From: Rhodoferax sp.
GTDB lineage: Bacteria; Pseudomonadota; Gammaproteobacteria; Burkholderiales; Burkholderiaceae_C
Direction: 5' to 3'
DNA length: 64,000 bases
Assembly: GCA_031291305.1 (NCBI GenBank)
Contig: JARLJH010000048.1
Coordinates: forward strand, 1 to 64,000
Shown: piece by piece, positions 26,148 to 64,000 of the stretch
Numbering within the stretch: the stretch's first letter is position 1
How the letters are laid out: the number at the start of each line of letters is the position of its first letter
Made by a program: the position numbers and the translations under genes
The notes under the pieces: model-generated
Databases searched by the model: none
Told to the model about the DNA's origin: nothing
Seen by the model: the letters and a program-made list of their open reading frames with translations, nothing else

Positions 26148-26181
26148 AGCTACTAGCCCAGTAAATATAAGGGCTAGAGCC
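26148..26181. repeat. Intergenic repeat copy between pgk and fba
   Basis: The best hairpin of the family: CTAGCCC and GGGCTAG pair perfectly around an 11-nt A/T-rich loop. The ~200-nt gap around it holds no gene. Confidence 0.75.
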
Positions 26182-26212
26182 ACTTTTTTCTTATAACCAC
26201 CAGGAGATCACC

Positions 26213-27250
26213 ATGGCCTTTGTTTCCCTTCGTCAAATGCTCGACCACGCCGCTGAAAACGGTTACGGCGTGCCCGCGTTCAACGTCAACAACCTGGAGC
26301 AAATCCAGGCCATCATGGAAGCCGCTGCCGCCACCGACAGCCCGGTGATCTTGCAAGCCAGCGCCGGTGCCCGCAAATACGCCGGTGAAGCCTACCTGCG
26401 CCACATGGTGCTGGCGGCGGTGGAATCGTTCCCCGACATCCCGGTGGTGCTACATCAGGACCACGGCGCAACGCCTGCGGTGTGCCAGCAGTCGATCCGC
26501 TCGGGTTTCACCAGCGTGATGATGGACGGCTCGCTCCTGGCCGACGCCAAGACGCCGGCCAGCTACGCGTACAACGTGGACGTGACAAGCAAGGTGTGTG
26601 AGATGGCGCATGCCGTGGGCGTGTCGGTGGAGGGCGAACTCGGTTGCCTGGGTTCACTGGAAACCGGTGAGGCCGGTGAAGAAGACGGCGTGGGTGCCGA
26701 AGGCAAACTCAGCCACGACCAGATGCTGACCGACCCGGTGCAGGCCAAAGACTTCGTTGAAAAAACCGGTGTGGATGCGCTGGCGATTGCCATTGGTACC
26801 AGCCACGGCGCCTACAAATTCACCCGCAAGCCCACAGGCGACATCCTGGCGATTGACCGCATCGCCCAGATTCACGCGCAAATTCCCAATACGCACCTGG
26901 TGATGCACGGCTCCAGCAGCGTGCCGCAAGAGTGGCTGGCCATCATTCGCCAGTATGGTGGTGACCTGAAAGAAACCTACGGCGTGCCGGTAGAAGAAAT
27001 CCAGCGCGGCATCAAGAGTGGCGTGCGCAAGGTCAACATCGACACCGACATCCGTCTGGCCATGACCGGTGCCATGCGCCAGAGCTTTGCCCAAAACCCG
27101 AGCGAATTCGACCCGCGCAAATCGCTGATTGCCGCCCGCAAGGCGGCGGCTGGTATTTGCAAACTGCGTTTTGAAGCTTTTGGCTGCGCAGGCATGGGCA
27201 GCAAGATCAAACCGATTCACCTGGATGTGATGGCAGCGCGCTACGCCTGA
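26213..27250 (+). CDS. fba: Class II fructose-bisphosphate aldolase
   Basis: 345 aa zinc-dependent aldolase, cbbA. It condenses triose phosphates, and erythrose 4-phosphate with DHAP in the Calvin cycle. The metal-binding stretch [11 protein letters not shown] and the second ligands in [10 protein letters not shown] and VMHGSSSVP are in place, and KVNIDTDIR binds phosphate. The subtype with Calvin-cycle function (CbbA-type, about 345 aa) fits. CAGGAG lies before the ATG. It is the last gene of the operon. Confidence 0.96.
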
Positions 27251-34301: not shown

Positions 34302-35243
34302 CTAGGAGATGGTTTGGTAGTATAGGTTTTGCGGGTGATTGGCCTGGGCAAAAAAGAACCAGCGTTCGGCCAGCAGACCGATATATTGCAATACAAACGC
34401 GCTGCTCAAGAGGCCTGCAGACGAGACGGCTAAACCGCTGCCCAGCAACAATAGGGGCAGAGGGAACACCAGCAGCAAAAAGCCCCATTTGACCGAGCGT
34501 AACAAGCTGGCGGTGCGACCATGGAAAAACTCCCGTGTGTTGAAAGAACCGCCCATCAATCCCTGCGACTTTTGAACGATGCGAGGGTGTTTGATACCAA
34601 TGGCAGTTTGCAGGCTGGACTTCGATTTCAGTCTGGCGTTGCGTAACAGGGATGCCGTGCGCGTGATCCAGCCCAGCAGGGTGACCCCTGAAGCCGCGAT
34701 GGCATAGGGCACCACCAACGCTGGGAAGCCGGTGAGCGCCGCCAGAGCGGTGGCCAGGGTCAGACCCGACGCGCATCCCAGCAAAAAGTAGTTCACCAGC
34801 GTCAAGGCACTGGCCCACTCCTGCAAAAAGCGAATCGAGGCATAGATCATGGCGGTGCAGACGAACAGGGTCAGGCAGGCGACCATGGTTAGGGCACCGA
34901 TCCATCGGGTGCCACCCAGGCTCAGCATGTGGCTGGCGCCGTACACGAACAGGCCCGCCATAAAGACCGGCAAGGCGATCACTTCACGCGACAGCCAGGA
35001 GGTGCGCCACATCGCCGCAGCGCGCCAGGCGCGTTCAGGATGCCCCAGGTGAAAGAACGAAGCAATTAGCCCCAGCACGGTCAACACCAGCGCGACGACG
35101 CTGCCAGTCAATAGGAACTGCTGGCTCTGCGATACGTCCAGCGCGCCGATACCCGACAGTTCCGTGCCGTAGAGTGCCAGAAAAAGGCCTTGCGCGGCAC
35201 CCGTGAGGGTGGTGAGGAAGATGACAGAAAAAGCGGGTTGCAT
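34302..35243 (-). CDS. soeC: Sulfite dehydrogenase membrane anchor SoeC (DmsC-like)
   Basis: 313 aa integral membrane protein of the DmsC/NrfD superfamily with about eight helices. It anchors the SoeAB complex at the inner face of the membrane and passes electrons to quinone. The conserved stretch ASFFHLGHPERAWRA is a DmsC hallmark. The start chosen (MQPAFSVIF) leaves 22 nt to soeB; its ribosome-binding site is weak. The assignment to Soe rather than DMSO reductase rests on context: TauE next door and dsr nearby. Confidence 0.85.
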   Translation of the reverse strand: MQPAFSVIFLTTLTGAAQGLFLALYGTELSGIGALDVSQSQQFLLTGSVVALVLTVLGLIASFFHLGHPERAWRAAAMWRTSWLSREVIALPVFMAGLFVYGASHMLSLGGTRWIGALTMVACLTLFVCTAMIYASIRFLQEWASALTLVNYFLLGCASGLTLATALAALTGFPALVVPYAIAASGVTLLGWITRTASLLRNARLKSKSSLQTAIGIKHPRIVQKSQGLMGGSFNTREFFHGRTASLLRSVKWGFLLLVFPLPLLLLGSGLAVSSAGLLSSAFVLQYIGLLAERWFFFAQANHPQNLYYQTIS

Positions 35244-35265
35244 GATAGATGGTAGCTGGTGTGTT

Positions 35266-35991
35266 TCAGGTAGCAAAGTCTTCGCGACCGCCACCACGGT
35301 AGTTGTCGGACAACTTGGTATCGATCTTCAAGGGGTTGTCAATGCGTTCCAGATCTTCAGGGTGGATGCGCATTTCAGTTTTGCGACGTGGCAGATAGTG
35401 GTTCGATGGACTGGTGCCCCACTCGGGCATCAGTTGATAGCCGCCGCGTTCGGCAATGGCCTTTGAAACGACGGACTCGGGGTTATGCACATCGCCAAAC
35501 AAGCGTGCATTGGCTGGGCAGGCCAACACGCACGATGGTTTGCGCTCAGCCTCTGGCAAGGTGGTGCTGGTGACGCGGTCCACGCACAAGGTGCATTTGG
35601 TCATGACCTTGCGTTGTTCATCCAATTCGCGAGCGCCATAAGGACAGGCCCAGCTGCAGTATTTGCAGCCGATGCACTTGTCATAGTCCACCAGAACGAT
35701 GCCATCTTCGACCCGCTTGTAGCTGGCGCCGGTAGGGCACACCGGCACGCACGGCGGGTCTTCGCAGTGCAGGCAGGATTTGGGGAAATGCACGGTCTGT
35801 GTGTTGGGAAACTCGCCCACTTCAAAGGTTTGGACCCGGTTGAAGAAGGTGCCGCTGGGGTCGGCGTCATAGGGATTGAGGTCCGTCAGTGGCCCGGCTG
35901 AGCCGGAGGTGTTCCACTGCTTGCAACTGGTCACGCAGGCATGGCAGCCGACGCAGACATTCAGGTCAATGACCAAAGCCAACTGGGTCAT
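35266..35991 (-). CDS. soeB: Sulfite dehydrogenase iron-sulfur subunit SoeB
   Basis: 241 aa DmsB-type electron-transfer subunit with four [4Fe-4S] cysteine groups: CVGCHACVTSCK, CLHCEDPPCVPVCP, CIGCKYCSWACP and CTLCVDR...CVLACP. There is no Tat signal, consistent with the cytoplasmic SoeABC described in Allochromatium vinosum. It carries electrons from the molybdenum subunit to SoeC. Its start overlaps the soeA stop by 4 nt, indicating translational coupling. Confidence 0.88.
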   Translation of the reverse strand: MTQLALVIDLNVCVGCHACVTSCKQWNTSGSAGPLTDLNPYDADPSGTFFNRVQTFEVGEFPNTQTVHFPKSCLHCEDPPCVPVCPTGASYKRVEDGIVLVDYDKCIGCKYCSWACPYGARELDEQRKVMTKCTLCVDRVTSTTLPEAERKPSCVLACPANARLFGDVHNPESVVSKAIAERGGYQLMPEWGTSPSNHYLPRRKTEMRIHPEDLERIDNPLKIDTKLSDNYRGGGREDFAT

Positions 35992-38909
35992 TTCTGCATT
36001 CCCTTGCCTGCAAACCAGGCCTGCCAGCGTGGCAAGATGGTTTGAACCCCCGGTGCCGCGGGTACCGCCTTGAATTGTGGAAAGGTCTGCTGCGGTTCAT
36101 CTGCTTCGGCCTTGAAGATGCGGACCCGCACGTCGTACCAGGCGGCCTGACCAGTGATGGGGTCAGAGTTGGACAAGGATGCGCCGTCACCGGAGGGCGG
36201 CAATTCTTCGGAAATCAGGTGGTTGAGCAAGAAACCGCGCTGCGATTCGTTGGCTTCTGGTGTCAGGTTCCAGGCACCTTTGGATTTGCCAATGGCGTTC
36301 CAGGTCCAGACTGTGCCGGGTTCCACAGCTTCTGAGTAACGGCACAGGCAGCGTACTTTGCCCCATTGCGATTCAACCCACATCCAGCCGCCGTCTTCAA
36401 TACCCTGGATACGGGCGGTTTTGGGGTTAACGAACAGGTAATTGTGCGCGTGAATTTGGCGCAGCCAGGCGTTTTGCGAGTCCCAGGAGTGGTACATCGC
36501 CATCGGGCGCTGTGTGATGGCGTTCAGCGGGAATCGCGCTTTGTCGGTGGCTTGCTCTTCCAATGGTGCGTAATAGAACGGCAGCGGATCAAAATAGGTT
36601 TCGACCCGTTTGCGCAGCGGGTCTGGCGGCTGCTTGCCGACCCGCTTGCCTTGCGCTGCGCGGCGAAAGTCTTGCAGAAATTCCGAGTAAATGTGAATGA
36701 CGACGGGGTCCTTGTCACGGCGGATGCCGACGCTCTGTGCCCATTCCATGTAGCCTTTATTCCAGTTACGCATGTACTGGTATTCATGGGGCATCTCGTG
36801 GTGAAAGAAACAATTGTTCTTTTCGTACATTTCCCATTGTTTGGGATTGGGTTCGCCGCGCATCGATTTTTCGCCACCCTTGCCCCGCCAGCCTGCCAGA
36901 AAGCCGATGCCAGAGCCTGGTGCAGTTTCGTAGTTGACGATGAAATCGGGGTAGCTTTTGAACTTGCGAGCGCCGTCGGCCTGGGTAAACGCAGGAAGCT
37001 GAAGACGACCTGCCAGCTCAATCAGCACCTCCTGGAACGGCTTGCAGTCACCCTTGGGTGGCAGGATCGGGATGCGCACCGCATCGACCGGCCCGTCAAA
37101 CTCGGAAATCGGCCGGTCCAGCATGGACATGGTGTCGTGCCGCTCCAGATAAGTGGTGTCAGGCAGGATCAGGTCAGCAAAGGCTGTCATCTCGGACTGG
37201 TACGCATCGCACACCACCAGGAACGGAATTTTGTACTCACCTGCCTTGTCGCCCTCAACATGCTTGTCGTTGAGCATCTTGCGCACCTCAGAGGTGTTCA
37301 TGGTGGAGTTCCAAGCCATGTTAGCCATGAAGATCAGCAGGGTGTCAATGTGATAGGGGTCACCACGCCAGGCATTGGTGATGACGTTGTGCATCAAACC
37401 GTGCGCTGACAGCGGGTGTTCCCAGGAAAAGCCCTTGTCGATGCGCACGGGCTGCCCGTGGTTGTCAACAAACAAGTCATCCGGGCTTTCCGGCCAGCCT
37501 AGCGGCGCACCATCCAGCGGTGTGTTGGGTTTGATGGCTTGCGGGCTTTTGGGCGGGCGGGCGTTGGGCGGTACGGCACGCGGGTAGGGCGCCTTATGCC
37601 GAAAGCCGCCCGGGCGGTCAATTGTGCCCAGCAAGGACATCAGTATGGACAGTGCCCGGATGGTCTGAAATCCATTGGAGTGTGCTGCCAGGCCGCGCAT
37701 GGCGTGAAAAGCCACTGGGTTGCCGGTGACGGATTCGTGGCGCTTGCCCCAGCTGTCGGTCCAGGCAATGGGGAGCTCTATTTTTTGATCCCGCGCGGTG
37801 ATGCCCATCTCGTGCGCCAGGCGTCGGATGGTGGCCGCCGGTATGCCGGTAATGCCCTCAGCCCACTCCGGGGTGTAGGCCTTGACACGGTCTTGCAGCA
37901 ATTGAAATGCTGGCACAGCGGTGGTGCCATCAGGCATTTTGAAGTGACCCAGCAGTGCCGGGTCAGAACCTTCGGTGTGGTCGGCCACTGCAGTATCGGT
38001 GTGGCGGTCCCACCAATGGAAATTGGCCGGGCGCAAGGGGTTGACAAGGTCACCGTCTGCATTGCGCAGAAACATGCCGAAGGCGTCGCTCGCCGTATCC
38101 TGGTTCACCAACTGACCGGCGTTGGTGTAGCGGGTCAAGAATTCACGGTCATACAGCCCTTGCTTGATCAACTCGTGGGTCAGCGCCAGGATCAGGGCGC
38201 CGTCTGTGCCGGGCTTGATCGGTACCCACTCGTCGGCAATGGCCGAATAGCCGGTGCGCACGGGATTGATGGATACAAAGCGGCCACCATTTCGCTTGAA
38301 CTTGGACAGTTCGCGTTTCATGGGGTTGGAGTGATGGTCCTCGGCGGTACCGATCATCACGAACAGTTTGGCTCTTTCAAGGTCCGGACCACCAAACTCC
38401 CAAAAAGAGCCGCCGATGGTGTAGATCATGCCTGCGGCCATGTTGACCGAGCAAAAACCACCGTGCGCCGCGTAATTGGGGGTTCCAAACTGCCTGGCGA
38501 ACAGCCCGGTCAGTGCCTGCATCTGGTCACGGCCGGTGAACAAGGCAAACTGTTTGGGGTCGGTCGCGCGAATGTGTCTGAGCCGTTGTTCAAGCGTGGA
38601 AAACGCTTCTTCCCAACTGATTTCCTCAAACTCGCCATCGCCGCGTTCGCTGCCCGTCTTTCTCTTCAATGGTTTTGTCAGGCGGGCGGGTGAATACTGT
38701 TTCATGATGCCCGATGAGCCTTTGGCACAGATGATGCCTTGGTTCAACGGGTGCTCAGGATTGCCTTCGATGTAACGGACTTCGCCGCCTCTGAGGTGGA
38801 CCCGAATGCCACAGCGGCAGGCGCACATGTAGCAAGTGGTGGTGCGCGTCTCGGTTGACGCGCCAGGCAAGGGCGGAGCTGCCGGGTCGTGTAGATGTGC
38901 GGAAGGCAT
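35988..38909 (-). CDS. soeA: Sulfite dehydrogenase molybdopterin subunit SoeA
   Basis: 973 aa molybdopterin oxidoreductase of the DMSO-reductase family that oxidises sulfite to sulfate in the cytoplasm. The N-terminal [4Fe-4S] cysteines are in CYMCACRCG and ICAKG. Bis-MGD-binding stretches follow (FALFTGRDQMQAL, YAAHGGFCSVNMAAG), and the C-terminal molydopterin-dinucleotide-binding domain covers about residues 770-960. There is no twin-arginine leader, unlike periplasmic DmsA or PhsA. It is the first gene of a seven-gene operon. Thiosulfate, polysulfide or arsenic substrates are the less likely alternatives. Confidence 0.87.
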   Translation of the reverse strand: MPSAHLHDPAAPPLPGASTETRTTTCYMCACRCGIRVHLRGGEVRYIEGNPEHPLNQGIICAKGSSGIMKQYSPARLTKPLKRKTGSERGDGEFEEISWEEAFSTLEQRLRHIRATDPKQFALFTGRDQMQALTGLFARQFGTPNYAAHGGFCSVNMAAGMIYTIGGSFWEFGGPDLERAKLFVMIGTAEDHHSNPMKRELSKFKRNGGRFVSINPVRTGYSAIADEWVPIKPGTDGALILALTHELIKQGLYDREFLTRYTNAGQLVNQDTASDAFGMFLRNADGDLVNPLRPANFHWWDRHTDTAVADHTEGSDPALLGHFKMPDGTTAVPAFQLLQDRVKAYTPEWAEGITGIPAATIRRLAHEMGITARDQKIELPIAWTDSWGKRHESVTGNPVAFHAMRGLAAHSNGFQTIRALSILMSLLGTIDRPGGFRHKAPYPRAVPPNARPPKSPQAIKPNTPLDGAPLGWPESPDDLFVDNHGQPVRIDKGFSWEHPLSAHGLMHNVITNAWRGDPYHIDTLLIFMANMAWNSTMNTSEVRKMLNDKHVEGDKAGEYKIPFLVVCDAYQSEMTAFADLILPDTTYLERHDTMSMLDRPISEFDGPVDAVRIPILPPKGDCKPFQEVLIELAGRLQLPAFTQADGARKFKSYPDFIVNYETAPGSGIGFLAGWRGKGGEKSMRGEPNPKQWEMYEKNNCFFHHEMPHEYQYMRNWNKGYMEWAQSVGIRRDKDPVVIHIYSEFLQDFRRAAQGKRVGKQPPDPLRKRVETYFDPLPFYYAPLEEQATDKARFPLNAITQRPMAMYHSWDSQNAWLRQIHAHNYLFVNPKTARIQGIEDGGWMWVESQWGKVRCLCRYSEAVEPGTVWTWNAIGKSKGAWNLTPEANESQRGFLLNHLISEELPPSGDGASLSNSDPITGQAAWYDVRVRIFKAEADEPQQTFPQFKAVPAAPGVQTILPRWQAWFAGKGMQK

Positions 38910-38983
38910 GCAGGGACGCTTTTTTGGGTGGTTTGTTCAGAACTCGCGGTGAGCGCCTATTAGATTCATGGGCACCCAAATCC

Positions 38984-39027
38984 GTCTATCACCGACACGG
39001 GTAATCCGGTGCTACCCATTTGGGTAG
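38984..39027 (+). promoter_or_regulatory. Shared sulfur-promoter element, soeA/two-component copy
   Basis: GTCTATCACC-N5-GGGTAA-N17-GGGTAG. The right part also contains the perfect palindrome GCTACCCA-TT-TGGGTAGC (39011-39028). The element lies between the divergent soeA and sensor-kinase genes, about 75 and 90 nt from their starts. Matching elements occur before dsrA and before tusA. The TACCC half-sites resemble NarL/FixJ-family heptamers. Confidence 0.8.
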
Positions 39028-39115
39028 CGGCGATGTGCAGACATAGAGGCTTCGGGTTTTTACGCTTTATAAGTGTCCGGCAATGCATTAGCATGCAACG
39101 AATCCTTTGGCGCCC

Positions 39116-40342
39116 ATGAGATACGTTAAAACACCTGTTCCCGCTTCTATCCGCGCAGCACCGAAACAACAACACCCTTCTGGTGTTGTTGTTTCGGAAT
39201 TGACCGCAGAACTGGCTGGTGGGCGCGACGTGGAATTGTTGCTGGAGCAATTCCTGCTTCCCATCGTCGCGATGGTGGGTGCACAGGCTGGCGCTGTACG
39301 CGTGTTGACCGATGATGGCGCGCACATGCGCCTAGTGAGTCAACTGGGGTTGCCTGCAGATATGGCGGAATCTGAGCGTCTGGTTGAGACTGGCTGCGGC
39401 GTGTGTGGCTTGGCCGCGAGCAGCGATATGCTGGTTTGGATGGATGATTTTGGAAACTGCAGCCACCGTAACGGGCCGAATTATTTCGGCCTCCAGTGTC
39501 AGCGTGTACTGGCTATTTCGCTGGTTCACAATGGCGAGATACTTGGCATCTATAACTTGTTCTTTGAATCTGCTAGCCCCCTGAGCGCACAGCTCGAAAC
39601 CATGTTGCGCCTGATAGGTCAACTTCTGGGCCTGTCACTGTATAACGCTAGAGTTGAACGTGATCGGATGCGCCAGACGGTGATCAAAGAACGGCAGGAA
39701 ATGGTCAATGAAGTGCATGATGTGATTGCGCAAACATTGGCATACGTCAACATGCGCTTGCCACTGCTGAATGACGCGATGCTTGCACATGATGACCGCA
39801 AGTCCATCAAGTACTTTACCGACGTGAAAGATGCGGTCAGTGAGGTGCATCACAATTTGCGCGAGGTGATGACCTATTTTCGGGTGCAGATGGATCCTAT
39901 GGGGCTGTTGTGTGCGTTGGAGGGAATAGCGGAGGGTTTTTTTGATCGCACGGGGATTAAGCTTGAAATAAGAAATTCCGCTGGAAAGCTGGGACTGAAT
40001 GAGAAACAGGAGGTTCAGGTTTTTCACGTCGTTCAGGAGGCCTTGGCCAATACGGCCAAGCACTCCATGGGCAGGCATGCCACAGTCGCTATTGAACGAA
40101 CTGCGCATGGTCTTGAATTCGTGGTTGAAGATGATGGATTGGGCATGGTTGCGCCATCGGTTTCAACCATTGTGACGACGGCCAAGGGGATGACGGTGTC
40201 AACGCATTTTGGTCTAGAAATCATGAAGAGCCGAGCGCAGCGTCTTGGTGGAAGTGTGGATGTAAGCACGAATGAAGGTGGTGGTACCAAGGTTCGGCTG
40301 CTGCTGCCAGTCGATGCGTCGTATGCGGGGTCTTGCCCATGA
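39116..40342 (+). CDS. GAF-domain sensor histidine kinase, NarX/DegS type
   Basis: 408 aa cytoplasmic kinase without membrane helices. The GAF domain (about 45-185) has clustered cysteines at 94, 97, 115 and 128 (CGVC and others), a possible redox or Fe-S site. The HisKA_3 dimerisation helix has the phospho-acceptor His201 in NEVHDVIAQTL, followed by a HATPase domain (about 300-400: ALANTAKHS, DDGLGM, GGGTKVRL). The ATG is chosen over a TTG nine bases earlier. Its stop overlaps the start of the regulator gene. Divergent placement from soeA suggests that it senses sulfur or redox state; that is inference. Confidence 0.88.
   Translation: MRYVKTPVPASIRAAPKQQHPSGVVVSELTAELAGGRDVELLLEQFLLPIVAMVGAQAGAVRVLTDDGAHMRLVSQLGLPADMAESERLVETGCGVCGLAASSDMLVWMDDFGNCSHRNGPNYFGLQCQRVLAISLVHNGEILGIYNLFFESASPLSAQLETMLRLIGQLLGLSLYNARVERDRMRQTVIKERQEMVNEVHDVIAQTLAYVNMRLPLLNDAMLAHDDRKSIKYFTDVKDAVSEVHHNLREVMTYFRVQMDPMGLLCALEGIAEGFFDRTGIKLEIRNSAGKLGLNEKQEVQVFHVVQEALANTAKHSMGRHATVAIERTAHGLEFVVEDDGLGMVAPSVSTIVTTAKGMTVSTHFGLEIMKSRAQRLGGSVDVSTNEGGGTKVRLLLPVDASYAGSCP
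39161..39197. repeat. Perfect 16-bp inverted repeat inside the kinase coding start
   Basis: CCGAAACAACAACACC and GGTGTTGTTGTTTCGG are exact complements separated by CTTCT. It begins 45 nt inside the kinase gene and encodes APKQQHPSGVVVS. There is no T-run after it. A hairpin this strong near the start codon could limit translation. Confidence 0.85.
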
Positions 40343-41028
40343 CTGAAAATGTACGAGTGATGCTGGTGGATGATCATGCACTTTGCCGCAACGGACTGAC
40401 AGAGTTGCTGGTGGAACGAGGGGGCATGGACGTGGTTGGGGCGACGGGCAATCCTGATCAGGTGGCGTCCATGTTGCATGAGCTCCAACCCGATTTGGCG
40501 GTGCTGGATCTGCGTCTGGCAAGCACGGACGGACTGAGTTTGTTGCGGCATTTGCGATCACAAGGCTGTAACACCCCAGTTGTTATTCTGACCATGAGTG
40601 ACAGTGAGGCCGATTTGTCTGCAGCGCTTCGGGCTGGTGCTCGAGGCTATCTTCTGAAGGATATGCAGCCGGAGGAAATGATGGATGCCATTGGGCGTGC
40701 AGCCCGTGGCGAAATGGTAGTGGCCTCTGCCATGACACTCAAACTTGCACAAATGCTGCAGTCCGGCCCCAAAGTATCTGCCAGAGGAGATTTGGTGGCT
40801 TCATTGACTGACCGGGAACGTGAGGTGCTGAACCACGTCGCCCATGGACAAAGCAACAAAGTGATCGCCAAAGCGCTTGACATCAGCCACAACACAGTTA
40901 AGTTGCACGTTCATCACATCATGGACAAACTCAACTTGCGCTCTCGCGTGGAGGCAGCCGTTTTTGCGTTTGAATTGAGAAATGAAACCGACAGCGGCAA
41001 AGACGCGAATACAAAAAGCGGCGCTTGA
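40339..41028 (+). CDS. NarL/FixJ family response regulator
   Basis: 229 aa partner of the preceding kinase. The receiver domain (1-125) has acidic pocket Asp11/Asp12, phospho-acceptor Asp57 in LAVLDLRL and Lys in GYLLKDM. The LuxR-type helix-turn-helix (about 155-220) includes LTDREREVLNHVAHGQSNKV and HNTVKLHVHHIMDKL. The ATG overlaps the kinase stop (ATGA). NarL relatives bind TACC-rich heptamers, which matches the shared element found before soeA, dsrA and tusA, so this is the leading candidate regulator of the sulfur genes here. Confidence 0.92.
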   Translation: MTENVRVMLVDDHALCRNGLTELLVERGGMDVVGATGNPDQVASMLHELQPDLAVLDLRLASTDGLSLLRHLRSQGCNTPVVILTMSDSEADLSAALRAGARGYLLKDMQPEEMMDAIGRAARGEMVVASAMTLKLAQMLQSGPKVSARGDLVASLTDREREVLNHVAHGQSNKVIAKALDISHNTVKLHVHHIMDKLNLRSRVEAAVFAFELRNETDSGKDANTKSGA

Positions 41029-42214: not shown

Positions 42215-43960
42215 TCAATGCTCGCCTTTGGTTTTCCAAAGACCGGCGAGTCGATTGCCCTGTTTTTGTGGTCCACCAATCGGGAACAGCGCATGCAGTT
42301 GGTGATTGTTTCCGCGTTCTGTTCCCCATGCCGAGGCAAAGTGTTTAATCATCGTGCGCACTTGAGCCTGCACGCGGTGTTCGTCAAAATGATCGCGCAG
42401 AAAACGGATGACCTCCCAGTGAGAATCGGTCAGTTTAAGGTTTTCCTGGCGCGCCTGAGCTTGGGCAAACTCTTCGGACCAGTCGTTTAAATGGACTAAA
42501 TAGCCTTCCATGTCAGTCGCTATAGGGCGACCATTGACCTCAATACTTTGGGTCGGTGATGTCGAGTCTGCAAGGGCTGCGTCGCTGCTGGCTTTTTGGG
42601 ATCGAACGAAGCTCACAAATCCTTTTGCCCAGTCAGAGCCCGCGCCGCTACGCAAGTGGGCGTAGGACGCCAGCACATTGCGGTACACAATTCCGTCGTT
42701 TTGTCCGTCCACACCGTGCCCGCGTTGCACACGGTAGGCAAATTTCAGGTCTGCAGATATGTTCTCCAGGCTGGAATAGTGGAACTCATGGCCCCGAACC
42801 ACCTCTTCTCCAGACCCCGTTGACCAGGGCGCTTCGCCAGTCAGTTTCAGCTCCACATAGCCACGTCCCACCGGACGCGGGTGCATTTGAACGTCGGCGG
42901 GTAGTGCCCCCACCATCTCGCAAGCCTTGTCGTGCCACCGGATGCTGCGTGCCAGATACATCATTCCGCCACATTCTGCATAGACGGGCAGGTCATCTTC
43001 AATGGCGGCCCGAATGCTGGTGCGCATCGAGATGTTGGCCGCCAGCTCTGCCATGAATACCTCGGGAAAGCCTCCGCCGATGAACAGACCATCTACAGGA
43101 GGTAACTGTTGATCATGCAGCGTGTCAAACGGAACAATCTCGGCACCGGCTTGTTCCAGCACCTGCAAATCGTCAGAATAGTAGAAGCCAAAAGCTTTGT
43201 CACGAGCTACACCGATGCGGACTTTTTGAAGATCAGGTTGGACTGCTTCTGCCGATGTTGCTGGCAATGCCATGGGTGCGGCAGACGCTGCCACCTGCAA
43301 CAGTCGTGGCAAATCAACCTGTGCTGCAATGCGTTCACCGATGGCACAAACACGCTGTCTCGCGTCGTCCAACTCATGGTTGGGCATGAGCCCCAGGTGA
43401 CGCTCCTGCACCGCGAGCAATGGATCACAGCCTACGGCACCCAACACCTGAACATCGGTGTAGTGTTCAATGACTGCGCGCAGTTTGGATTCGTGGCGGG
43501 CACCACCCAGTTGATTCAAGACAACACCTGCAATTTTGATGCGCGGATCAAAGGCTTGGTAACCCAGAATCAAGGGCGCAATTCCGCGCGTCATGCCTCT
43601 TGCATCAAGCACCAGGATCACCGGCAAATCCAGCAAGTGGGCCAGAGCCGCATTGCTATTGCTGCCATCCAGCGCCAACCCATCGTAAAGGCCTTTATTA
43701 CCCTCAACGATGCTGATGTCTGAAGTCGCGGACGCACGGCCATAGCACGATTGAATTTGCTCGCCGCTCATCAAATAGGGGTCCAGATTGAAGCAGTCAC
43801 GCCCGCTGGCCTGCGACAGCCACATCGGATCAATGTAATCTGGTCCCTTCTTGAAAGGTTGAACCTTCAGACCCTGGCCCGTCAAAGCGGCGCACAAACC
43901 CAAGGTAATCGTCGTCTTGCCCGACGATTTATGTGCTGCAGAAATCAGAAGGCGTGACAT
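42215..43960 (-). CDS. dsrN: DsrN (cobyrinate a,c-diamide synthase-like) fused to a cysteine-less DsrC-like domain
   Basis: 581 aa, over 100 longer than a plain DsrN. Residues 1-~450 are a CbiA/CobB-type amidotransferase: P-loop SAAHKSSGKTTIT, then a glutamine-amidotransferase half (FIGGGFPEVF, YAECGGMMYLA with the nucleophile Cys). It is thought to amidate sirohaem for DsrAB. Residues 472-581 align end to end with DsrC/TusE (LTDSHWEVIRFLRDHF, then HALFPIGGPQKQGNRLAGL), but both DsrC cysteines are absent and the tail ends KTKGEH. It lies between dsrP and dsrR with short gaps. Confidence 0.92.
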   Translation of the reverse strand: MSRLLISAAHKSSGKTTITLGLCAALTGQGLKVQPFKKGPDYIDPMWLSQASGRDCFNLDPYLMSGEQIQSCYGRASATSDISIVEGNKGLYDGLALDGSNSNAALAHLLDLPVILVLDARGMTRGIAPLILGYQAFDPRIKIAGVVLNQLGGARHESKLRAVIEHYTDVQVLGAVGCDPLLAVQERHLGLMPNHELDDARQRVCAIGERIAAQVDLPRLLQVAASAAPMALPATSAEAVQPDLQKVRIGVARDKAFGFYYSDDLQVLEQAGAEIVPFDTLHDQQLPPVDGLFIGGGFPEVFMAELAANISMRTSIRAAIEDDLPVYAECGGMMYLARSIRWHDKACEMVGALPADVQMHPRPVGRGYVELKLTGEAPWSTGSGEEVVRGHEFHYSSLENISADLKFAYRVQRGHGVDGQNDGIVYRNVLASYAHLRSGAGSDWAKGFVSFVRSQKASSDAALADSTSPTQSIEVNGRPIATDMEGYLVHLNDWSEEFAQAQARQENLKLTDSHWEVIRFLRDHFDEHRVQAQVRTMIKHFASAWGTERGNNHQLHALFPIGGPQKQGNRLAGLWKTKGEH

Positions 43961-53365: not shown

Positions 53366-54646
53366 TCAGGCCGCTGCTTTGCGAGCGTTGAGCTTGGCCA
53401 CTTCATCGTCCCAGCCATCGGTGCGGACATACGGATTGGTGCGGGGGGTAGAAACCATGTTGGGATCGATCTCCAGACCAATTCCTTCCAGGAAGTTGAT
53501 CAGGCCAATGCGTTCGATCATTTCGCCGGTGCGCTCGTGCTCCAGCGCGTTTTCGGCAAAGAAGTCGATGGACTTCTGCGCCAAATCCACCAGGGCTTCG
53601 TAATCTTCATCTGACGCCATGGGCATGAACGGAATCACCACCGTACCCATCAGGTCACCGATTTTGAGGGTGCGCTTGCCGCCCATCAACACTGTCACCC
53701 CCTTGTCCGTGCCGGTTGCCAGTGCACCGGTCATGACGTTGATGCAATGCATGCAGCGCACACAGTTGCCGTTGTCGATTTCAAGGGCCTGGGTGTCGTT
53801 GATCGCCACACTGGAAGTCTTGGCACCGGTTCCGACATCCTTGATTTCTTTCAGCATGATGGCCTTGGTTGGGCAGCGGCTGACCACATCGTTCACCAGT
53901 TCGGTCATGCCGTGCTTGGCAAGCCACTTCTTGGCCATGGCTTCGTCGGTGCGGATGTTGTCACGCCAGGTGCCAATCACCGCCATATCCGCACGCTGAA
54001 TGGAATTCATGCAGTCGTTGGGGCAGCCTGAGAACTTGAACTTGAACTTGTAAGGCAACGCCGGGCGGTGCATGTCATCCAGGAACGTGTTGACGACTTG
54101 GCGGTGTGCACGCGCCTCGTCAAAGCACGACTGCTCGCAGCGCGCAGCGCCCACACACGACATCGAGGTGCGCACCGCCGGCCCGGCACCGCCCAAGTCA
54201 AAACCCAGCTCGTTGAGTTCATCGAACGCACCTTGCACATTGGCGGTGCTGGCGCCCTGGAACATGATGTCGCCCGACTGGCCGTGAAACGCGATCAGGC
54301 CCGAGCCGTGCTTTTCCCAGATGTCGCACATTTTGCGCAACACCGCGGTGTCGTAGTGCATGCCAGCAGGCGGCTGGATGCGCAGCGTGTGGAACTCTTT
54401 AGAAGCAGGAAACATCTCGGCCACCTCGGAAAAGCGCGGAATCACGCCGCCGCCGTAACCAAATACGCCCACCGTCCCGCCCTTCCAATAGCCCTTGCGG
54501 GTTTTGTAGGAGTGCTCCAGCTGACCCATCAGGTCTGTCATGTAGTCATTGTCTTTGGCCAGACGTTTCAAACCCGTCACGAAGCTGGGCCATGGACCGC
54601 TTTCGAGCTGATCCAGCATGGGGGTGTCATGGGGTTGTTTGCTCAC
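53366..54646 (-). CDS. dsrA: Dissimilatory sulfite reductase alpha subunit DsrA
   Basis: 426 aa. The sirohaem/Fe-S cysteines lie in CVGAARC (C-x5-C) and SGCPNDC (C-x3-C), followed by a ferredoxin domain (NCVRCMHCINVM). The start is GTG with AGGAGA about 6 nt upstream. It is the first gene of the fifteen-gene dsr operon. The presence of dsrEFH and dsrL downstream points to the oxidative enzyme rather than a sulfate reducer's. Confidence 0.97.
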   Translation of the reverse strand: MSKQPHDTPMLDQLESGPWPSFVTGLKRLAKDNDYMTDLMGQLEHSYKTRKGYWKGGTVGVFGYGGGVIPRFSEVAEMFPASKEFHTLRIQPPAGMHYDTAVLRKMCDIWEKHGSGLIAFHGQSGDIMFQGASTANVQGAFDELNELGFDLGGAGPAVRTSMSCVGAARCEQSCFDEARAHRQVVNTFLDDMHRPALPYKFKFKFSGCPNDCMNSIQRADMAVIGTWRDNIRTDEAMAKKWLAKHGMTELVNDVVSRCPTKAIMLKEIKDVGTGAKTSSVAINDTQALEIDNGNCVRCMHCINVMTGALATGTDKGVTVLMGGKRTLKIGDLMGTVVIPFMPMASDEDYEALVDLAQKSIDFFAENALEHERTGEMIERIGLINFLEGIGLEIDPNMVSTPRTNPYVRTDGWDDEVAKLNARKAAA

Positions 54647-54959
54647 GGCGAATCTCCTGTCAGGTGCGAATATGAGACGTTGATGGGACGAACTAGCTGT
54701 CGCACTTCGGCGAACTTGTCAGCATGAACTCGTCAGCATTTCTTACGCGATGAATAGTACGGTTCGCTATGGGCTGGCTGCTATCACCCTCGTTGAGTAG
54801 ATGAGGCTACCCATTCGGTATATGCCCGCTTACCCGAGCCGGTGATAGACGTGATGCGCGCAATTGCGCCAAATAGGACATGTTGCGGCAACTAGCCCAT
54901 TCCCCGAGTTGGAGCGTGGGTGAGGGTTGCGTCCATGACCACCAAGAAATGCAGACCTT
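54647..54959. other. dsrA / accessory-operon divergent promoter region
   Basis: No gene seen. It carries the shared sulfur-promoter element (below), plus a further GCTATCACCCTCG near 54780 that forms an inverted partner to the element's GGTGATAGAC, so two regulator sites may face each other. Confidence 0.6.
54807..54850 (-). promoter_or_regulatory. Shared sulfur-promoter element, dsrA copy
   Basis: Read on the minus strand: GTCTATCACC-N5-GGGTAA-N17-GGGTAG, with exactly the same spacings as the soeA and tusA copies. It points toward dsrA and ends about 160 nt before its GTG. Confidence 0.8.
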
Positions 54960-55217
54960 ATGTTCAGTGTCATACCCCTAGATAAATTTGTCTCCCCGCT
55001 CGGGGGGCAGGTGATAGAGCTCCAGCAACTTGACTACGATGCCGGTGGCATGAGCTTGTTGCGCACGCGTATCCGTGAGAACAGTCGGTTTACTGTTTTT
55101 GAGGTGGATCCGCTGATTGCCAGGCAGTGGGGTGAAGCTTTGCTGCGCTGGGCGCAGGCACAACCCGAGACGCAAGCGACTACTTCGGCGCCCACGCCCA
55201 CGCCCACGCTGCCATGA
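54960..55217 (+). CDS. Small hypothetical protein, first gene of the dsr-divergent operon
   Basis: 85 aa, unrecognised. The central region is compact (GGMSLLRTRIRENSRFTVFEVD, in two parts around residues 29-50), followed by QWGEALLRWAQAQ and a Thr/Pro-rich low-complexity end (PTPTPTLP). Its stop overlaps the start of the Cmx6-like gene by 4 nt (ATGA), so the two are translationally coupled, which supports that both are real. The function is unknown. Confidence 0.7.
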   Translation: MFSVIPLDKFVSPLGGQVIELQQLDYDAGGMSLLRTRIRENSRFTVFEVDPLIARQWGEALLRWAQAQPETQATTSAPTPTPTLP

Positions 55218-55828
55218 ATGATGTTGACAGCTTGACTGCGACGGCCGTTGACGCGATTTTTTCGCTAGAGGGGCTGAGCCTGCCGCACGATCATGCGCAG
55301 GCGCTGCAGCTTGCGTTGTGCGCCGCGTTGCCTTGGCTTCAAACGGACGCTATTGCTGCGGTGTTGCCTTTGAAACTGGCACCTGGTGATCCCGATCAGG
55401 GCCTGTTGTCCAAGCGTACGCAACTGATTTTGCGGGTGGCGGCACACCGGATGAACGAACTGAGGGCGCTGGCGGGTGCTGAGCTGTTGGTTGCCGGGTG
55501 TCGCTTGCGGCTGGATGACCCGCACCCCCGTGCGTTGCGGCCCATGGCCACTTTGTACGCCTACAAGGTCGCGGCCGACAACGATGACGAATTTTCTTTC
55601 ATGCAGGACATGGAAAAGGAGCTGACCGAGCTGGCCATTGGTGGCGAACGGGTGTGTGGCAAGCGCGGGCAAATGGTGTTGTCAGGCCGGGTGCAAAGCA
55701 CCTTCAGTCTGATGCTGCACGGATTAAGGCCAGAGCAATCTTTGCGCTTGCAACACTTCGGATTGGGGCCACACCGTCTGTTGGGTTGTGGGGTATTTGT
55801 ACCTCACAAGTCGGCAACCGCCGTGTGA
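55214..55828 (+). CDS. Orphan Cas6/Cmx6 (type I-MYXAN) family protein
   Basis: 204 aa. Family hallmarks, recognised from memory: VDAIFSLEGLSLPHDHAQAL (15-31, with a His in the usual N-terminal position), LPWL, LLSKRTQLILRV, and the C-terminal glycine-rich loop LQHFGLGPHRLLGCGVFVPH. Cas6 proteins are RAMP-fold endoribonucleases that cut CRISPR repeats. No CRISPR array or other cas gene is visible in this window. It is locked into an operon with a DsrC paralogue, divergent from dsrAB, so it may act on another RNA. Family call good; function unknown. Confidence 0.82.
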   Translation: MNDVDSLTATAVDAIFSLEGLSLPHDHAQALQLALCAALPWLQTDAIAAVLPLKLAPGDPDQGLLSKRTQLILRVAAHRMNELRALAGAELLVAGCRLRLDDPHPRALRPMATLYAYKVAADNDDEFSFMQDMEKELTELAIGGERVCGKRGQMVLSGRVQSTFSLMLHGLRPEQSLRLQHFGLGPHRLLGCGVFVPHKSATAV

Positions 55829-55858: not shown

Positions 55859-56188
55859 ATGAGCTACAACATTGGTGGTGTTGAACATGAGACGGATGAA
55901 CAAGGTTATCTGATCGAGCCGGTTTTTGATGACGAGGCGGTGCGGGTCATCGCTGCAGCTGAAAACATTGAACTGACCGATGCGCATTGGGAAGTCGTCA
56001 ACTACCTGCGTGACCAATACCGTGAAAACGGCCACACCCCCAACTTCCGGGCCATGCTCAAGGGCATGGCAGAAATTCGCCCTGAAGTCGATAGCAAATA
56101 CCTCTACGACCTGTTCCCGGTTGGCCCAGCCAAACAAGGCCCCAAGGTGGCAGGCTTGCCGCAGCCGCTGGGTAAGGGCGGTTACTAA
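55859..56188 (+). CDS. DsrC/TusE paralogue lacking both cysteines (RspA-like)
   Basis: 109 aa, clearly DsrC family (DEQGYLIEP, LTDAHWEVVNYLRDQYRENG, YLYDLFPVGPAKQGPKVAGL). The two functional cysteines of DsrC are replaced: Pro95 and Lys106 occupy their aligned positions. It cannot carry sulfur by the known mechanism. DsrC homologues without cysteines have been proposed to be regulatory (called RspA). It lies 30 nt after the Cmx6-like gene. Confidence 0.92.
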   Translation: MSYNIGGVEHETDEQGYLIEPVFDDEAVRVIAAAENIELTDAHWEVVNYLRDQYRENGHTPNFRAMLKGMAEIRPEVDSKYLYDLFPVGPAKQGPKVAGLPQPLGKGGY

Positions 56189-57809: not shown

Positions 57810-59285
57810 ATGTCGCATCAGGTCAGTGTTTGGCGAGCGGCGCAGTTGGTGGGTGTTGCACGCGGCGTGCTGCAGCAGCAAGTGCGTGAGGGCACCCTCA
57901 TGGTGAATGATGGACTGGTGTCCACGGATACCTTGGTGCAGCTCTACCCGGACGCGCAGTTGGAAGAGTCCGGCATGCTGGAGCGCGTTGTCCAAATTCG
58001 GGACGAGGCATTCGGCAAACGGCTACGCGAGCGCCTCTTGCCCAGTCAGGAGGTCCTTGCCCAGCGTCTATTCGCCCAAAGCCAGGAGTTGGGCGATGTG
58101 CGGCGGCATCTTCAGCGTTACCACGGCCTGGTCATTGCGGTGCAAAAGCGCGTCCGGGAGCTGGCGGCGCTTCACCCGGATGATGCGGATTTACGAGCGT
58201 TGGAACAACAGGTGACCGGTGGGCTGGCTGAGGCGCTGGCGACGAAGTCGGTTGGCATGCTGGAAGTGATGGACGATATGCTCAAAGTGATGGCGGCACA
58301 GGTCACGGTGCGACCCAGCGGGCACCAATTTTTGGTGGAGGGACATGCCAATTTGCTGCAATCGGGTCTGCACTCCGGGCTCAAGCTCAACTACGGCTGT
58401 GGCAACGGCAGTTGCGGCATGTGCAAGGTTCGGGTCATCTCTGGCGAGGTGGCCAGAACCCAGCATTCCGACTACCTGTTGTCGGAATCGGAAAAAGCCC
58501 AGGGTTACACCCTGATGTGTTGCCACACGGCCGCCAGCAGCGAACTCGTGCTGGAGCTGCTGGAGGCCGACGGGCCGCAAGACATCCCGCAGCAGCAGAT
58601 CGTGGCCCAAGTGCGTGCTGTCAGTGAACTCGCCCCCAACACCCGGCTGCTGCACCTGCAGACACCGCGCTCACATCGCCTGCGCTTTCTGGCCGGGCAG
58701 TCGGTATCACTGGGATGGACGCGCGCTGGGCAGGACGACGTCTCTAGCACCTACCCGGTGGCCAGTTGCCCGTGTGACGACCGCAACCTGCTCTTCTTCA
58801 TTGCACGCGATGCCACCGACGACCTGGCGCGCCACTTGTTTGCGGGCGACATCAAAGCCGGGTCGCCCGTAACCGTGGTCGGCCCGATGGGCGAGTTTGT
58901 ACTGGCTGAGGGTCATCGTCCCCTGGTTTTTGCCGCCTGTGACGGTGGATTTGCGCCCATCAAGAGCTTGATCGAATACGCGTTGTCGTTGGATGCCGCG
59001 CCGTCTTTGTCCCTGTTCTGGCTGGCCACGCGCAGTGATGGGCACTTTCTGGAGAACCAGTGCCGCGCCTGGAGCGAGGCGCTGGACCAGTTTGAATACG
59101 AGCTGGTGGCCCATGCAGATGTTGAAGCCGGTGCCAGGGAAATCGCCCTGGCCATGCGCGCTGACCTGTTTGACATTGAATGCGACTTCTATCTGGCTGG
59201 CCCGCCGGACTTCATTCACACGCTGCACCATGAATTGCGCGCATCTGGCGTGGCTGCGGCGCAGATATTTACTCAGACACTTTGA
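57810..59285 (+). CDS. Fusion: helical N-domain, [2Fe-2S] ferredoxin, FAD/NAD(P) reductase
   Basis: 491 aa. Residues 1-~160 are helical; the first 45 (VWRAAQLVGVARGVLQQQVR) look like a winged or helix-turn-helix module, followed by a coiled-coil-like stretch. Residues ~165-255 are a plant-type ferredoxin with Cys197, Cys202, Cys205 and Cys237. Residues ~260-491 are a ferredoxin-reductase-like FAD and NAD(P) module (STYPVASCP, VVGPMGEF, YLAGPPDFI). It may pass electrons from NAD(P)H to the dioxygenase before it, or be a redox-sensing regulator. A 61-nt AT-rich gap precedes it. Confidence 0.82.
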   Translation: MSHQVSVWRAAQLVGVARGVLQQQVREGTLMVNDGLVSTDTLVQLYPDAQLEESGMLERVVQIRDEAFGKRLRERLLPSQEVLAQRLFAQSQELGDVRRHLQRYHGLVIAVQKRVRELAALHPDDADLRALEQQVTGGLAEALATKSVGMLEVMDDMLKVMAAQVTVRPSGHQFLVEGHANLLQSGLHSGLKLNYGCGNGSCGMCKVRVISGEVARTQHSDYLLSESEKAQGYTLMCCHTAASSELVLELLEADGPQDIPQQQIVAQVRAVSELAPNTRLLHLQTPRSHRLRFLAGQSVSLGWTRAGQDDVSSTYPVASCPCDDRNLLFFIARDATDDLARHLFAGDIKAGSPVTVVGPMGEFVLAEGHRPLVFAACDGGFAPIKSLIEYALSLDAAPSLSLFWLATRSDGHFLENQCRAWSEALDQFEYELVAHADVEAGAREIALAMRADLFDIECDFYLAGPPDFIHTLHHELRASGVAAAQIFTQTL

Positions 59286-59311
59286 GTCCACCATCTTTTG
59301 ACGAGTTGCTC

Positions 59312-59716
59312 ATGCATCACCCAACCACATGGCCGACAGCAAACCGTGCGGCGCACACGGATGCCACATCGTTCGCCGCTGCGGCTGCTGCCGAGGCCGA
59401 TGATGCGCCGGACTGTGCGGGAGGCGAGTCCTTTGCGCTGATGGTGCTGGGGCACAGCATGGCCCCCGAGTTCCTAGAGGGAGAAATCATCATCATCGAA
59501 CCCGATGGACTGGCCAAGGACGGCTCCTTTGTGCTGGCCTGGCACCAGAACGAATGGACCTTCAGGCAGTTGATTCGTTCGGCCACCGGCTGGTCGCTGC
59601 ATCCGCTGAACCCGGCTTTTCAGGATCAAGCGCTGGACAGCCTGGACGCCGTGCGCGGCGTCATCATTCAGAAGGCGCTGCCAGGTCGGCGTTGCGCGTC
59701 CAAACATTACATCTGA
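59312..59716 (+). CDS. S24/LexA-like domain protein without catalytic lysine
   Basis: 134 aa. An Ala-rich N-terminus (about 40 residues) is followed by an S24/LexA-type fold: VLGHSMAPEFLEGEIIII carries the nucleophile Ser49, and TFRQLIRS aligns with the LexA lysine region (VKRL), where Arg85 replaces the lysine. Self-cleavage is therefore doubtful. There is no DNA-binding domain. A TTG ten codons upstream is an alternative start. It follows the reductase by about 26 nt and may serve as a binding or regulatory module of the operon. Confidence 0.75.
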   Translation: MHHPTTWPTANRAAHTDATSFAAAAAAEADDAPDCAGGESFALMVLGHSMAPEFLEGEIIIIEPDGLAKDGSFVLAWHQNEWTFRQLIRSATGWSLHPLNPAFQDQALDSLDAVRGVIIQKALPGRRCASKHYI

Positions 59717-60976: not shown

Positions 60977-61447
60977 CTAAATGAACAGACAGACGTCTGA
61001 TTCGCCAGCAAACTTCATGAAAGTGGCGGCACCACCGTATTCCACGTCCTTGATGAACTCGCTGGTTTCAAACTCGAACAGGTCGACCGTCATCTGGCAG
61101 GCCACAAACTTGACATCCGACTCCAGGCAGATGTCGCGCAACTCCTGCAGCGATGCAACGCCTTTGGATTTCATCTTGTTCTTCATCATCATGGTGGCCA
61201 TGGACTCCATGCCCGGCAGCATCTGGACCATCACGGGCATCGGCACGGGCATCGGCATGGCCGGATTGGCCAACGGGCTGATCTTGATGTCATCCAGGTT
61301 TTTGCGCAGCAACTGCAGACCATAGAAGGTGAAGAAAATTTGCACATCCCAGCCCAACGCTGCGGCGGTGGATGCCAGAATGAACGGCGGATAAGCCATG
61401 TCCAGCGTGCCTTTGGTCGCGATGAGCGCCATCTTTTTTGTTGCCAT
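60977..61447 (-). CDS. dsrE2: DsrE2-family sulfur-trafficking protein
   Basis: 156 aa DsrE/F-like protein of the DsrE2 subgroup, with hydrophobic helices in the first half (YPPFILASTAAALGWDVQIF) and a Met/Pro-rich loop. The conserved cysteine is in KFVACQMTVDLF. DsrE2 proteins pass sulfur together with TusA. GGAG precedes the chosen ATG by about 10 nt; the upstream extension overlaps tusA and is rejected. The rhodanese gene often found with tusA-dsrE2 is not here. Confidence 0.9.
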   Translation of the reverse strand: MATKKMALIATKGTLDMAYPPFILASTAAALGWDVQIFFTFYGLQLLRKNLDDIKISPLANPAMPMPVPMPVMVQMLPGMESMATMMMKNKMKSKGVASLQELRDICLESDVKFVACQMTVDLFEFETSEFIKDVEYGGAATFMKFAGESDVCLFI

Positions 61448-61488
61448 GCGTTGCTTGCTCCGTAAGGTGTCGTGGTAAGGGCTGGAGG

Positions 61489-61716
61489 TCAGGCTTTCTT
61501 GAGGTAGAAAACGAATTTGCTGTTTTCGGTGCTTTGTTCCAGCAGGGCATTGCCCGTCTGTTCGGCAAACGCGGCCATGTCGCATACCGAGCCGGGATCG
61601 GTGGCAATCACGCGTAGCACCTGTCCTGATGTCATGTCAGAGAGCGCTTTTTTGGTTTTGACGATAGGCAAAGGGCAGGACAGGCCCGACGCGTCAAATT
61701 CTTTGCTGAATTCCAT
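61489..61716 (-). CDS. tusA: TusA family sulfur carrier
   Basis: 75 aa. The persulfide-carrying Cys14 lies in SCPLPIVKTKKAL, the TusA signature. In sulfur oxidisers TusA receives sulfane sulfur from rhodaneses and gives it to DsrE2 or DsrEFH. It is the first gene of the tusA-dsrE2 unit and lies about 125 nt from the shared promoter element. Confidence 0.95.
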   Translation of the reverse strand: MEFSKEFDASGLSCPLPIVKTKKALSDMTSGQVLRVIATDPGSVCDMAAFAEQTGNALLEQSTENSKFVFYLKKA

Positions 61717-62140
61717 GCTTGTCTCCGGTGGCTGTCATGTGCAGCCGGTTGTGTATGTAGGGCCAGAAGTTGCAGTGACGCCATCCAATCGTTTGGAGGG
61801 TCGACCACAGGTTTGATTCTTGAGGAGGCCCTTGCCTACGTCTATCACCACGAAGGGTAATCTTTGGTAAACCATATGGGTGATATGGTAATTGAGTGGA
61901 CCACCAAATCAGCAGGCCATGACCCATCGGGTGCGTTTGTGGCCATGAATTTGCCAATCTGCTGGACTGCCACGTGATCCAACGTACTGACAACGCCACG
62001 CATCAGGCCTATGATGGCACTTGGACAATGAGCGAGATCGCACGGATCCTCATCATGTGCCGCGGCAACGCCTTCAAGGTACCCGGTGCCCTACAGTGAA
62101 GCCGCTAGTCAAGGCCGTGCTTTTACATGGAGAGGTCATC
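61717..62140. other. tusA / DUF1840 divergent region
   Basis: About 420 nt. It contains the shared sulfur-promoter element. To its right, one frame (about 61923-62100) reads like the end of a protein (DGTWTMSEIARILIMCRGNAF) without a good start, so it may be a gene remnant or chance. Confidence 0.45.
61840..61883 (+). promoter_or_regulatory. Shared sulfur-promoter element, tusA copy
   Basis: GTCTATCACC-N5-GGGTAA-N17-GGGTGA, with the same spacing as the two other copies. It is followed by GATATGG. It lies about 125 nt before tusA and about 260 nt before the DUF1840 gene. Confidence 0.78.

Positions 62141-64000
<1,860 letters not shown>

Follow-up and report, generated by a model that had tools for sequence, protein, structure and literature searches.

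A conserved promoter element unites sulfur-oxidation genes of many Burkholderiales and is most likely operated by an adjacent NarL-family two-component pair

The window analysed here, i.e., the whole stretch of 64,000 nucleotides from Rhodoferax sp., contains three groups of sulfur-oxidation genes, each of which is preceded by a copy of one composite element. The first copy (38983..39028, plus strand) consists of two dyads and is located between soeA (35988..38909, minus strand) and a histidine kinase gene. soeA encodes a molybdopterin oxidoreductase with a score below the NCBIfam cut-offs, and its sulfite-oxidising role is assigned by context. It is followed by soeB (35266-35991) and soeC (34302-35297), named as in the initial annotation. 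The histidine kinase has GAF, HisKA_3 and HATPase_c domains (39116..40342, plus strand), and the next gene encodes a NarL-family response regulator with Response_reg and GerE domains, the proposed activator (40339..41028, plus strand). The second copy (54806..54851, minus strand), detected by pattern and model, lies between dsrA (53366..54646, minus strand), the first gene of the dsr operon, and DUF6967 (54960..55217, plus strand), the first gene of a divergent accessory operon that also contains a cas6-like gene (55214-55828, plus strand) and a TusE/DsrC-like gene (55859-56188, plus strand). The third copy (61839..61884, plus strand), again detected by pattern and model, precedes tusA (61489..61716, minus strand), which is followed by dsrE2 (60977-61585).

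The pattern GTCTATCACC-N5-GGGTAA-N17-GGGTRR, which the initial annotation had reported for these three sites, was indeed present there with 0 mismatches, at 38984-39027 (plus), 54807-54850 (minus) and 61840-61883 (plus), and the exact copies all fall into a stretch of 23 kb. The pattern scan revealed no fourth match in the window even with up to 3 mismatches, and 0 matches were obtained in 100 dinucleotide shuffles of the window. Also in the whole host genome (G000; 4,984,719 bases, 69 contigs) matches with at most 3 mismatches were found only at the same three sites, and the reversed pattern, which was used as a control, had 0 matches in this genome. The additional claim that all three copies lie in divergent regions of sulfur genes has to be corrected for tusA/DUF1840, as DUF1840 has no known sulfur role; among 54 tusA copies with the element, DUF1840 was detected opposite tusA only in the host genome.

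A fourth, weaker copy was found with the sequence-only model at G000:C9:10398-10431 (23 bits, E about 3.6e-4 to 4.1e-4), and the next-best match in the host genome had an E of 0.49. It lies on contig C9 upstream of a second tusA-dsrE2 pair that is 92% and 94% identical to the pair of the window, and all four copies at E ≤ 1e-3 in the host genome precede sulfur genes. The fourth copy may no longer work, because both of its ends are degenerate: CACACG stands in place of the -35 box (see below) and the final GGGT is gone; the -10 at 17 bp is kept. The second tusA-dsrE2 pair is found at 1131-1866 of locus L230 (G000:C9:8400-12500), and an ORF at 2404-2868 of this locus resembles an IS200-type transposase by our own reading.

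Relatives were searched with two models and a script matrix. Model R1 had 27 genus sites as training set, including those of the window, and model R2 as well as the script matrix had 36 training sites from genus and family; the independent tests of the element are the family matches of R1 and the order-wide matches of R2 outside the family. Five exact-pattern matches, one each in G053, G034 (contig C434), G007, G028 and G092, were judged to be false and were excluded before model building. None of the 12 window genes used as queries was found near the false exact matches L020 and L024-L026, and the four false matches of the genus were not among the matrix matches listed (to about E 0.55). The first model (27 loci) was also built without L007, and 21 more exact-pattern matches were without a locus at that stage. 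The filters were stricter in the scans over 40 genomes, and therefore weak copies of the element were missed there. A copy in G552 was found by R2 and was not recovered by the script matrix.

In the genus, the matrix scan detected the element at E ≤ 1e-4 in 30 of 89 genomes. dsrA is present in 28 of the 89, and the element was found in all 28 of these, versus 2 of the 61 genomes without dsrA (G021 and G042). In a family sample of 399 genomes, 36 genomes from 18 of 141 genera had the element at E ≤ 1e-3, and the regulator as well as dsrA were each found in 36 genomes. An order sample of 389 genomes yielded 13 with a match, 11 of which were new and belong to three further families. Orthologous genes in four families have the element at the corresponding position.

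The facing genes were recorded for 154 matches at E ≤ 1e-3 (86 from the genus and 68 from the family, the repeats of G000 and G010 having been removed from the family list); most of the family matches lie outside the genus used for model training. A sulfur-oxidation gene or the linked kinase gene faces 151 of the 154 matches (85 of 86 in the genus, 66 of 68 in the family). These 151 sites include 54 at tusA, 43 at soeA (with the kinase gene opposite in 40), 40 at DUF6967/dsrA, 5 at sat (with the kinase gene opposite in 4), and one each at the kinase gene alone, a TauE-like gene and a SulP gene. soxY is faced by 14 of the 151, 8 of which are opposite tusA and were counted under tusA. The three matches without a facing sulfur gene are located within an ORF (G031:C166) or 246 bases from a contig end (G499:C129), or are partial (G514:C22). 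Also the 15 new order-wide matches were all found in sulfur neighbourhoods, i.e., at tusA (5), at kinase/regulator genes (5), at dsrA (2) and at Pyr_redox_2 proteins that we read as SQR-like (2). At the 15th (L360, G096:C32:4500-12000) a gene that is transposase-like by our own reading of the sequence lies between the element and tusA and apparently parts the promoter from the gene.

Between DUF6967 and dsrA the element was present at 31 of 32 dsrA promoters and absent in L209 (G284); 31 of these promoters stem from the 36 dsrA-bearing family genomes and one from G002, and some of them are training rows of the matrix. Kinase loci were collected independently of the element, with two peptide patterns derived from 13 aligned kinases, in the genomes of 84,980 species. 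The resulting 50 loci belong to Rhodoferax, Polaromonas, Hydrogenophaga, or organisms named to higher ranks only. In the model scan every kinase gene had a single element upstream, which gave exactly 50; many of the loci are from the same genomes as the training set of the model. The gene opposite the kinase is soeA in 47 of the 50 loci. In G047 and G059 it is sat, and in four genomes of family f38 it is TauE-like. Of the two neighbours of the element, the kinase-regulator pair is the more constant, and the opposite gene changes.

The initial annotation had proposed a likely sulfur regulon and had named two observations that would speak against it, namely many matches in coding DNA and a lack of conservation before the same genes in relatives. 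Both points were checked. The matches are not scattered in coding DNA, as 151 of 154 have a facing sulfur-oxidation or linked kinase gene, and the same genes keep the element in relatives (31 of 32 dsrA promoters, 50 of 50 kinase promoters), which supports the proposal. The element is a conserved promoter switch that unites sulfur-oxidation genes of many Burkholderiales. Sox is a variable member of this regulon: the element was found at 8 of 25 soxY loci (7 by script and L378), L386 starts at a contig end, and no element is present at the soxY locus of the host genome. Upstream of soxY in L382-L385 a variant element, (K)GTCTAGTATCCC..., was observed, in which the -35 box and the second dyad are largely intact and the first dyad is altered.

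The consensus of the 138 sites with standard spacing is CGTCTAT-N-ACCG-NNAN-GGGTRR-N7-TAGCCC-ANAT-GGGTAR; among the 151 sites the inter-dyad distance is one base longer in 11 and two bases longer in 2. The dyads are 23 bp apart, and both have a core of 4 bp. Read outward from the GTCTAT end, the box is TAGACG in 130 of 151 sites and TGGACG in 12; the -35 consensus is TTGACA. A -10-like hexamer ending with AAT (NNNAAT) was found exactly 17 or 18 bp from this box in 148 of the 151 sites, and also in 14 of 15 script-found copies from other families (11 from f38, 3 from f39, 1 from f25). At the other spacings examined (8-44) the AAT share was 0-3%, and on the opposite side it was never above 7%. 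The three exceptions are G049, with a hydrolase gene on that side, G461, with no recognised gene and also the -35 lost, and G465 (sat), so that two of the three have no recognised sulfur gene on the -35 side. Of the 151 sites, 149 have a recognised gene on the -35 side and 99 have one on the other side. Given the nearly constant position of the AAT, CGTCTA (TAGACG in the opposite orientation) behaves by its spacing as a -35 box and not as an operator, which would explain its invariance outside the dyads. The reading of GTCTATCACC as one operator half was rejected, as the spacing analysis placed its first six bases as the -35 box.

Within the window, the -35 box TAGACG of the soeA promoter (38983..38988, minus strand) lies at the GTCTAT end and was assigned from the spacing peak over the 151 sites and the sequence; the -10-like TCTAAT (38959..38964, minus strand) follows at 18 bp. 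The spacing analysis likewise assigned TAGACG at 54846..54851 (plus strand) to the DUF6967-cas6-tusE promoter, with CCAAAT (54869..54874, plus strand) as -10-like hexamer, and TAGACG at 61839..61844 (minus strand) to the tusA promoter, with AAGAAT (61816..61821, minus strand), both at 17 bp. The best hexamer at 15-20 bp agreed with the -10 consensus TATAAT in at least 4 of 6 positions in 107 of 151 sites (shuffles: mean 19, largest 28), and in no case in 6 of 6. The arrangement is that of a sigma-70 promoter with an abutting upstream operator, the -35 and -10 boxes being about 17 bp apart and the operator lying just upstream of the -35 box. In the usual promoter numbering, and relative to a start position that we infer, the dyads would be centred near -43.5 and -66.5 with a spacer of 17 bp and one base further with 18 bp. 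Such positions are occupied by class-II activators.

On the dsrA side a third half-site, GGGKGAT, was found exactly 16 bases past the element in 33 of the 40 DUF6967/dsrA loci, comprising 26 of the 27 genus loci and 7 of the 13 family loci. In the window it is GGGTGATAG (54781..54789, minus strand), 23 bp past the second GGGT, and three GGG triplets thus lie at 0, +23 and +46. The third dyad is imperfect, being one base longer inside. The best -10-like hexamer, which was sought 18-29 bases past the third half-site, was located at 21-23 in 33 of 33 cases, close to the half-site-to--10 distance on the other side; in the window it is TACTAT (54754..54759, minus strand). Given the fixed offset of the third half-site and this hexamer, one array would serve two divergent promoters. 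On the kinase side a 23-bp repeat was looked for by eye and none was seen.

The response regulator has the two domains of the NarL/FixJ type (PF00072, 1.9e-25; PF00196, 8.6e-22), its Asp59 is invariant in 27 of 27 aligned sequences, and the best solved structure by sequence is NarL (1a04). For the kinase, the Pfam search (E ≤ 0.001) revealed GAF, HisKA_3 and HATPase_c domains and no PAS domain. Counted from the TTG at 39107, it contains cysteines at positions 97, 100, 118 and 131, which are conserved in 61 of 61, 60 of 61, 61 of 61 and 55 of 61 sequences, respectively. As three GAF cysteines are nearly invariant and the fourth is usual, the kinase may sense reduced sulfur or the redox state. 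Its most hydrophobic 19 residues (49-67) have a borderline mean of 1.8 and lie inside the Pfam GAF match (45-176), and therefore the kinase is probably cytosolic and a membrane segment unlikely. The AlphaFold model has a mean pLDDT of 61.7, which is too weak to place the cysteines, and Foldseek with this model retrieved mainly histidine-kinase cores.

The element and the regulator occur together in 27 of the 89 genus genomes (element alone 3, regulator alone 1) and in 34 of the 399 family genomes (element alone 2, regulator alone 2). In both regulator-only family genomes, G235 and G385, the script matrix, which allows extra bases, revealed a looser copy upstream of the kinase gene. The single contig of G145 carries the regulator at about 1.69 Mb, dsrA at about 0.88 Mb and tusA at about 2.79 Mb, i.e., 0.8 Mb or more apart, and the element is still present at dsrA and tusA; no element was found near its kinase gene. 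G021 (91% complete) has the element, yet neither the regulator nor dsrA, G229 has dsrA and elements and no regulator at E ≤ 1e-60, G008 and G040 (82% and 69% complete) have elements, yet no regulator was detected in them, and in G009 the regulator is diverged and a strong element is missing. As the sulfur genes mostly travel as one cluster, the co-occurrence is not independent and is alone no proof of the regulator.

The initial annotation had also linked the element to the NarL-like regulator. The gene adjoins one copy, is conserved and co-occurs with the element, and binding to the element is predicted; the operator, in contrast, is not of the NarL 7-2-7 type, because the core has 4 bp. NarL of E. 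coli binds DNA in its phosphorylated form. Its operator is TACCC-N6-GGGTA, the engineered best site being TACCCCTAAAGGGGTA (PMC4549865), and its heptamer is given as TACYYMT (PMC4886647). Like NarL, the regulator consists of a receiver and a GerE output domain, the half-site ATGGGTA, taken as its reverse complement, agrees with the heptamer (PMC4886647), and the position of the element resembles the napF and yeaR sites (PMC4549865). Unlike NarL, the dyads are N4 (7-0-7) instead of N6 (7-2-7), the regulator scores 217.6 bits, below the NF007935 cut-off of 250, the kinase has a cysteine-bearing GAF domain and the targets are sulfur genes. From the fit of the half-sites, the 4-bp core and the score it looks as if the regulator works like NarL, yet is not NarL. 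Also the kinase scores below the cut-offs of the NarX/NarQ nitrate sensors (134 versus 553 bits for NF008184, 106 versus 578 bits for NF007896), which are membrane-spanning and sense in the periplasm. In the recognition helix, families f38 and f25 differ from f1 and f39 by a Gln/Leu exchange, which might go along with GGGGG versus GGGTR half-sites; this is a lead only, as the exchange follows lineage and the pattern is not clean.

The nearest functional parallel found is NreBC of Bacillus licheniformis, a sulfide-responsive two-component pair that activates sqr and pdo (PMC9918477). Its sensor NreB has a PAS domain, in contrast to the GAF domain here, and its control is described there as local to sqr-pdo, atop the YrkD repressor, and thus differs from that of an rDsr/Soe/TusA set. 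Coordinate control of sulfur-oxidation genes is also known for Hyphomicrobium denitrificans; its SoxR and sHdrR are, however, described in PMC12423496 as ArsR-type repressors responsive to sulfane sulfur and acting on the sHdr pathway.

Taken together, the evidence points to the adjacent GAF-Cys kinase and the NarL-family regulator as the most likely pair to control the element. We assign a probability of roughly 0.8 to the reading that it is the sigma-70-type promoter module of a sulfur-oxidation regulon, which the regulator (40339-41028) would activate after phosphorylation by the kinase (39116-40342). Binding, phosphotransfer, activation and the signal, which we infer, would be connected as follows. 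The kinase would phosphorylate the response regulator, dimers of which would bind both dyads and assist the polymerase where the promoter is poor, in the manner of NarL at sites beside the -35 box. CGTCTA would serve as the -35 box of the gene on its side (soeA, tusA, DUF6967 or sat), with a weak NNNAAT -10 box at 17-18 bp, and the third half-site, again 23 bp on, would give dsrA a like geometry in the opposite direction. Even chances are given to the wider proposal of an undescribed two-component master regulon of lithotrophic sulfur oxidation in Burkholderiales. Here, the four-cysteine GAF kinase would sense intracellular reduced sulfur or the redox state, and its NarL-type partner would switch on reverse dsr, TusA delivery and the sulfite-oxidising route of the species (soeABC or sat) via 7-0-7 dyads that are arrayed with a 23-bp phase and joined directly to the core promoter.

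The element could also be a true operator of a sulfur regulon that is read by another regulator, e.g., an unlinked factor or an ArsR-type repressor similar to SoxR/sHdrR; the kinase pair would then be one target among others. Another sulfur oxidiser uses ArsR-type repressors (PMC12423496), and the elements of G021 and G229, where no regulator was detected, as well as the missing element near the kinase gene of G145 would fit. We regard this as unlikely, because the element stays with the kinase pair when the opposite gene changes and the half-sites resemble NarL heptamers. In addition, the operator borders on the -35 box and leaves it free, as would be expected for an activator, and the -35 and -10 boxes are weak. 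No ArsR domain was found by the Pfam scan among 30 window proteins.

That the NarL-type regulator binds the dyads and chiefly represses, e.g., under oxic or heterotrophic conditions, would have a precedent in NarL itself, which represses frdA from sites near the start (PMC4549865). This is quite improbable, as the dyads lie upstream of the -35 box in every class and never over the start, and as the core promoter is weak, with a -10 box matching at 4 or more positions in 107 of 151 sites and at all six in none. The clustering of the three exact copies within 23 kb might also suggest chance or a mobile repeat that was copied within the cluster, which has next to no probability in view of the 0 matches in shuffles and controls and the position before orthologous genes in four families. 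Chance, a transposed repeat and an artefact of coding DNA were rejected on the basis of the shuffles, the genome control and the 151 of 154 matches with a facing gene.

Activation by the NarL-type pair is the preferred reading. Among the open-licence literature matches listed, no earlier description of a regulator for this gene set was found, and also no account of the mechanism that turns on the reverse dsr pathway. The NarL-type two-component regulon is the known part; an operator geometry of its own and a new target set are the new part. The analysis offers a candidate regulator pair and a 46-bp operator-promoter with base-level roles; it also predicts the member genes in many genera and provides a sequence by which sulfur-oxidation operons can be recognised. 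The regulatory unit is kept while enzymes are swapped, i.e., the kinase promoter is opposite soeA in most genomes and opposite sat or a TauE-like gene in others. Hydrogenophaga aromaticivorans D2P1 (L117), the record of which has no metagenome-assembly mark, is apparently available as a cultured host.

Several further genes of the window were noticed. The gene at 55214-55828 (plus strand) in the accessory operon divergent from dsrA encodes a Cas6-family protein (PF09559, E 6.5e-49). tblastn revealed it beside dsrA also in other genera and in family f38, and a role of the Cas6 family in sulfur oxidation is not mentioned in the titles of the literature matches listed. Near the end of the accessory operon, 59282-59716 (plus strand) encodes a Peptidase S24-like domain, without a helix-turn-helix by Pfam. 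At 42215-43960 (minus strand) a CbiA/CobB-type amidotransferase (DsrN-like) is fused to a C-terminal DsrC domain; as a query the protein matches relatives, and the fusion itself was read in the window only. Upstream of the sulfur cluster, at 16180-27250, a LysR-type regulator lies beside Calvin-cycle-type genes (FBPase, transketolase, GAPDH, PGK, aldolase). Directly after DUF1840, 62446-63933 (plus strand) encodes the beta subunit of an alternate F1F0 ATPase (TIGR03305, 881 bits, cut-off 752).
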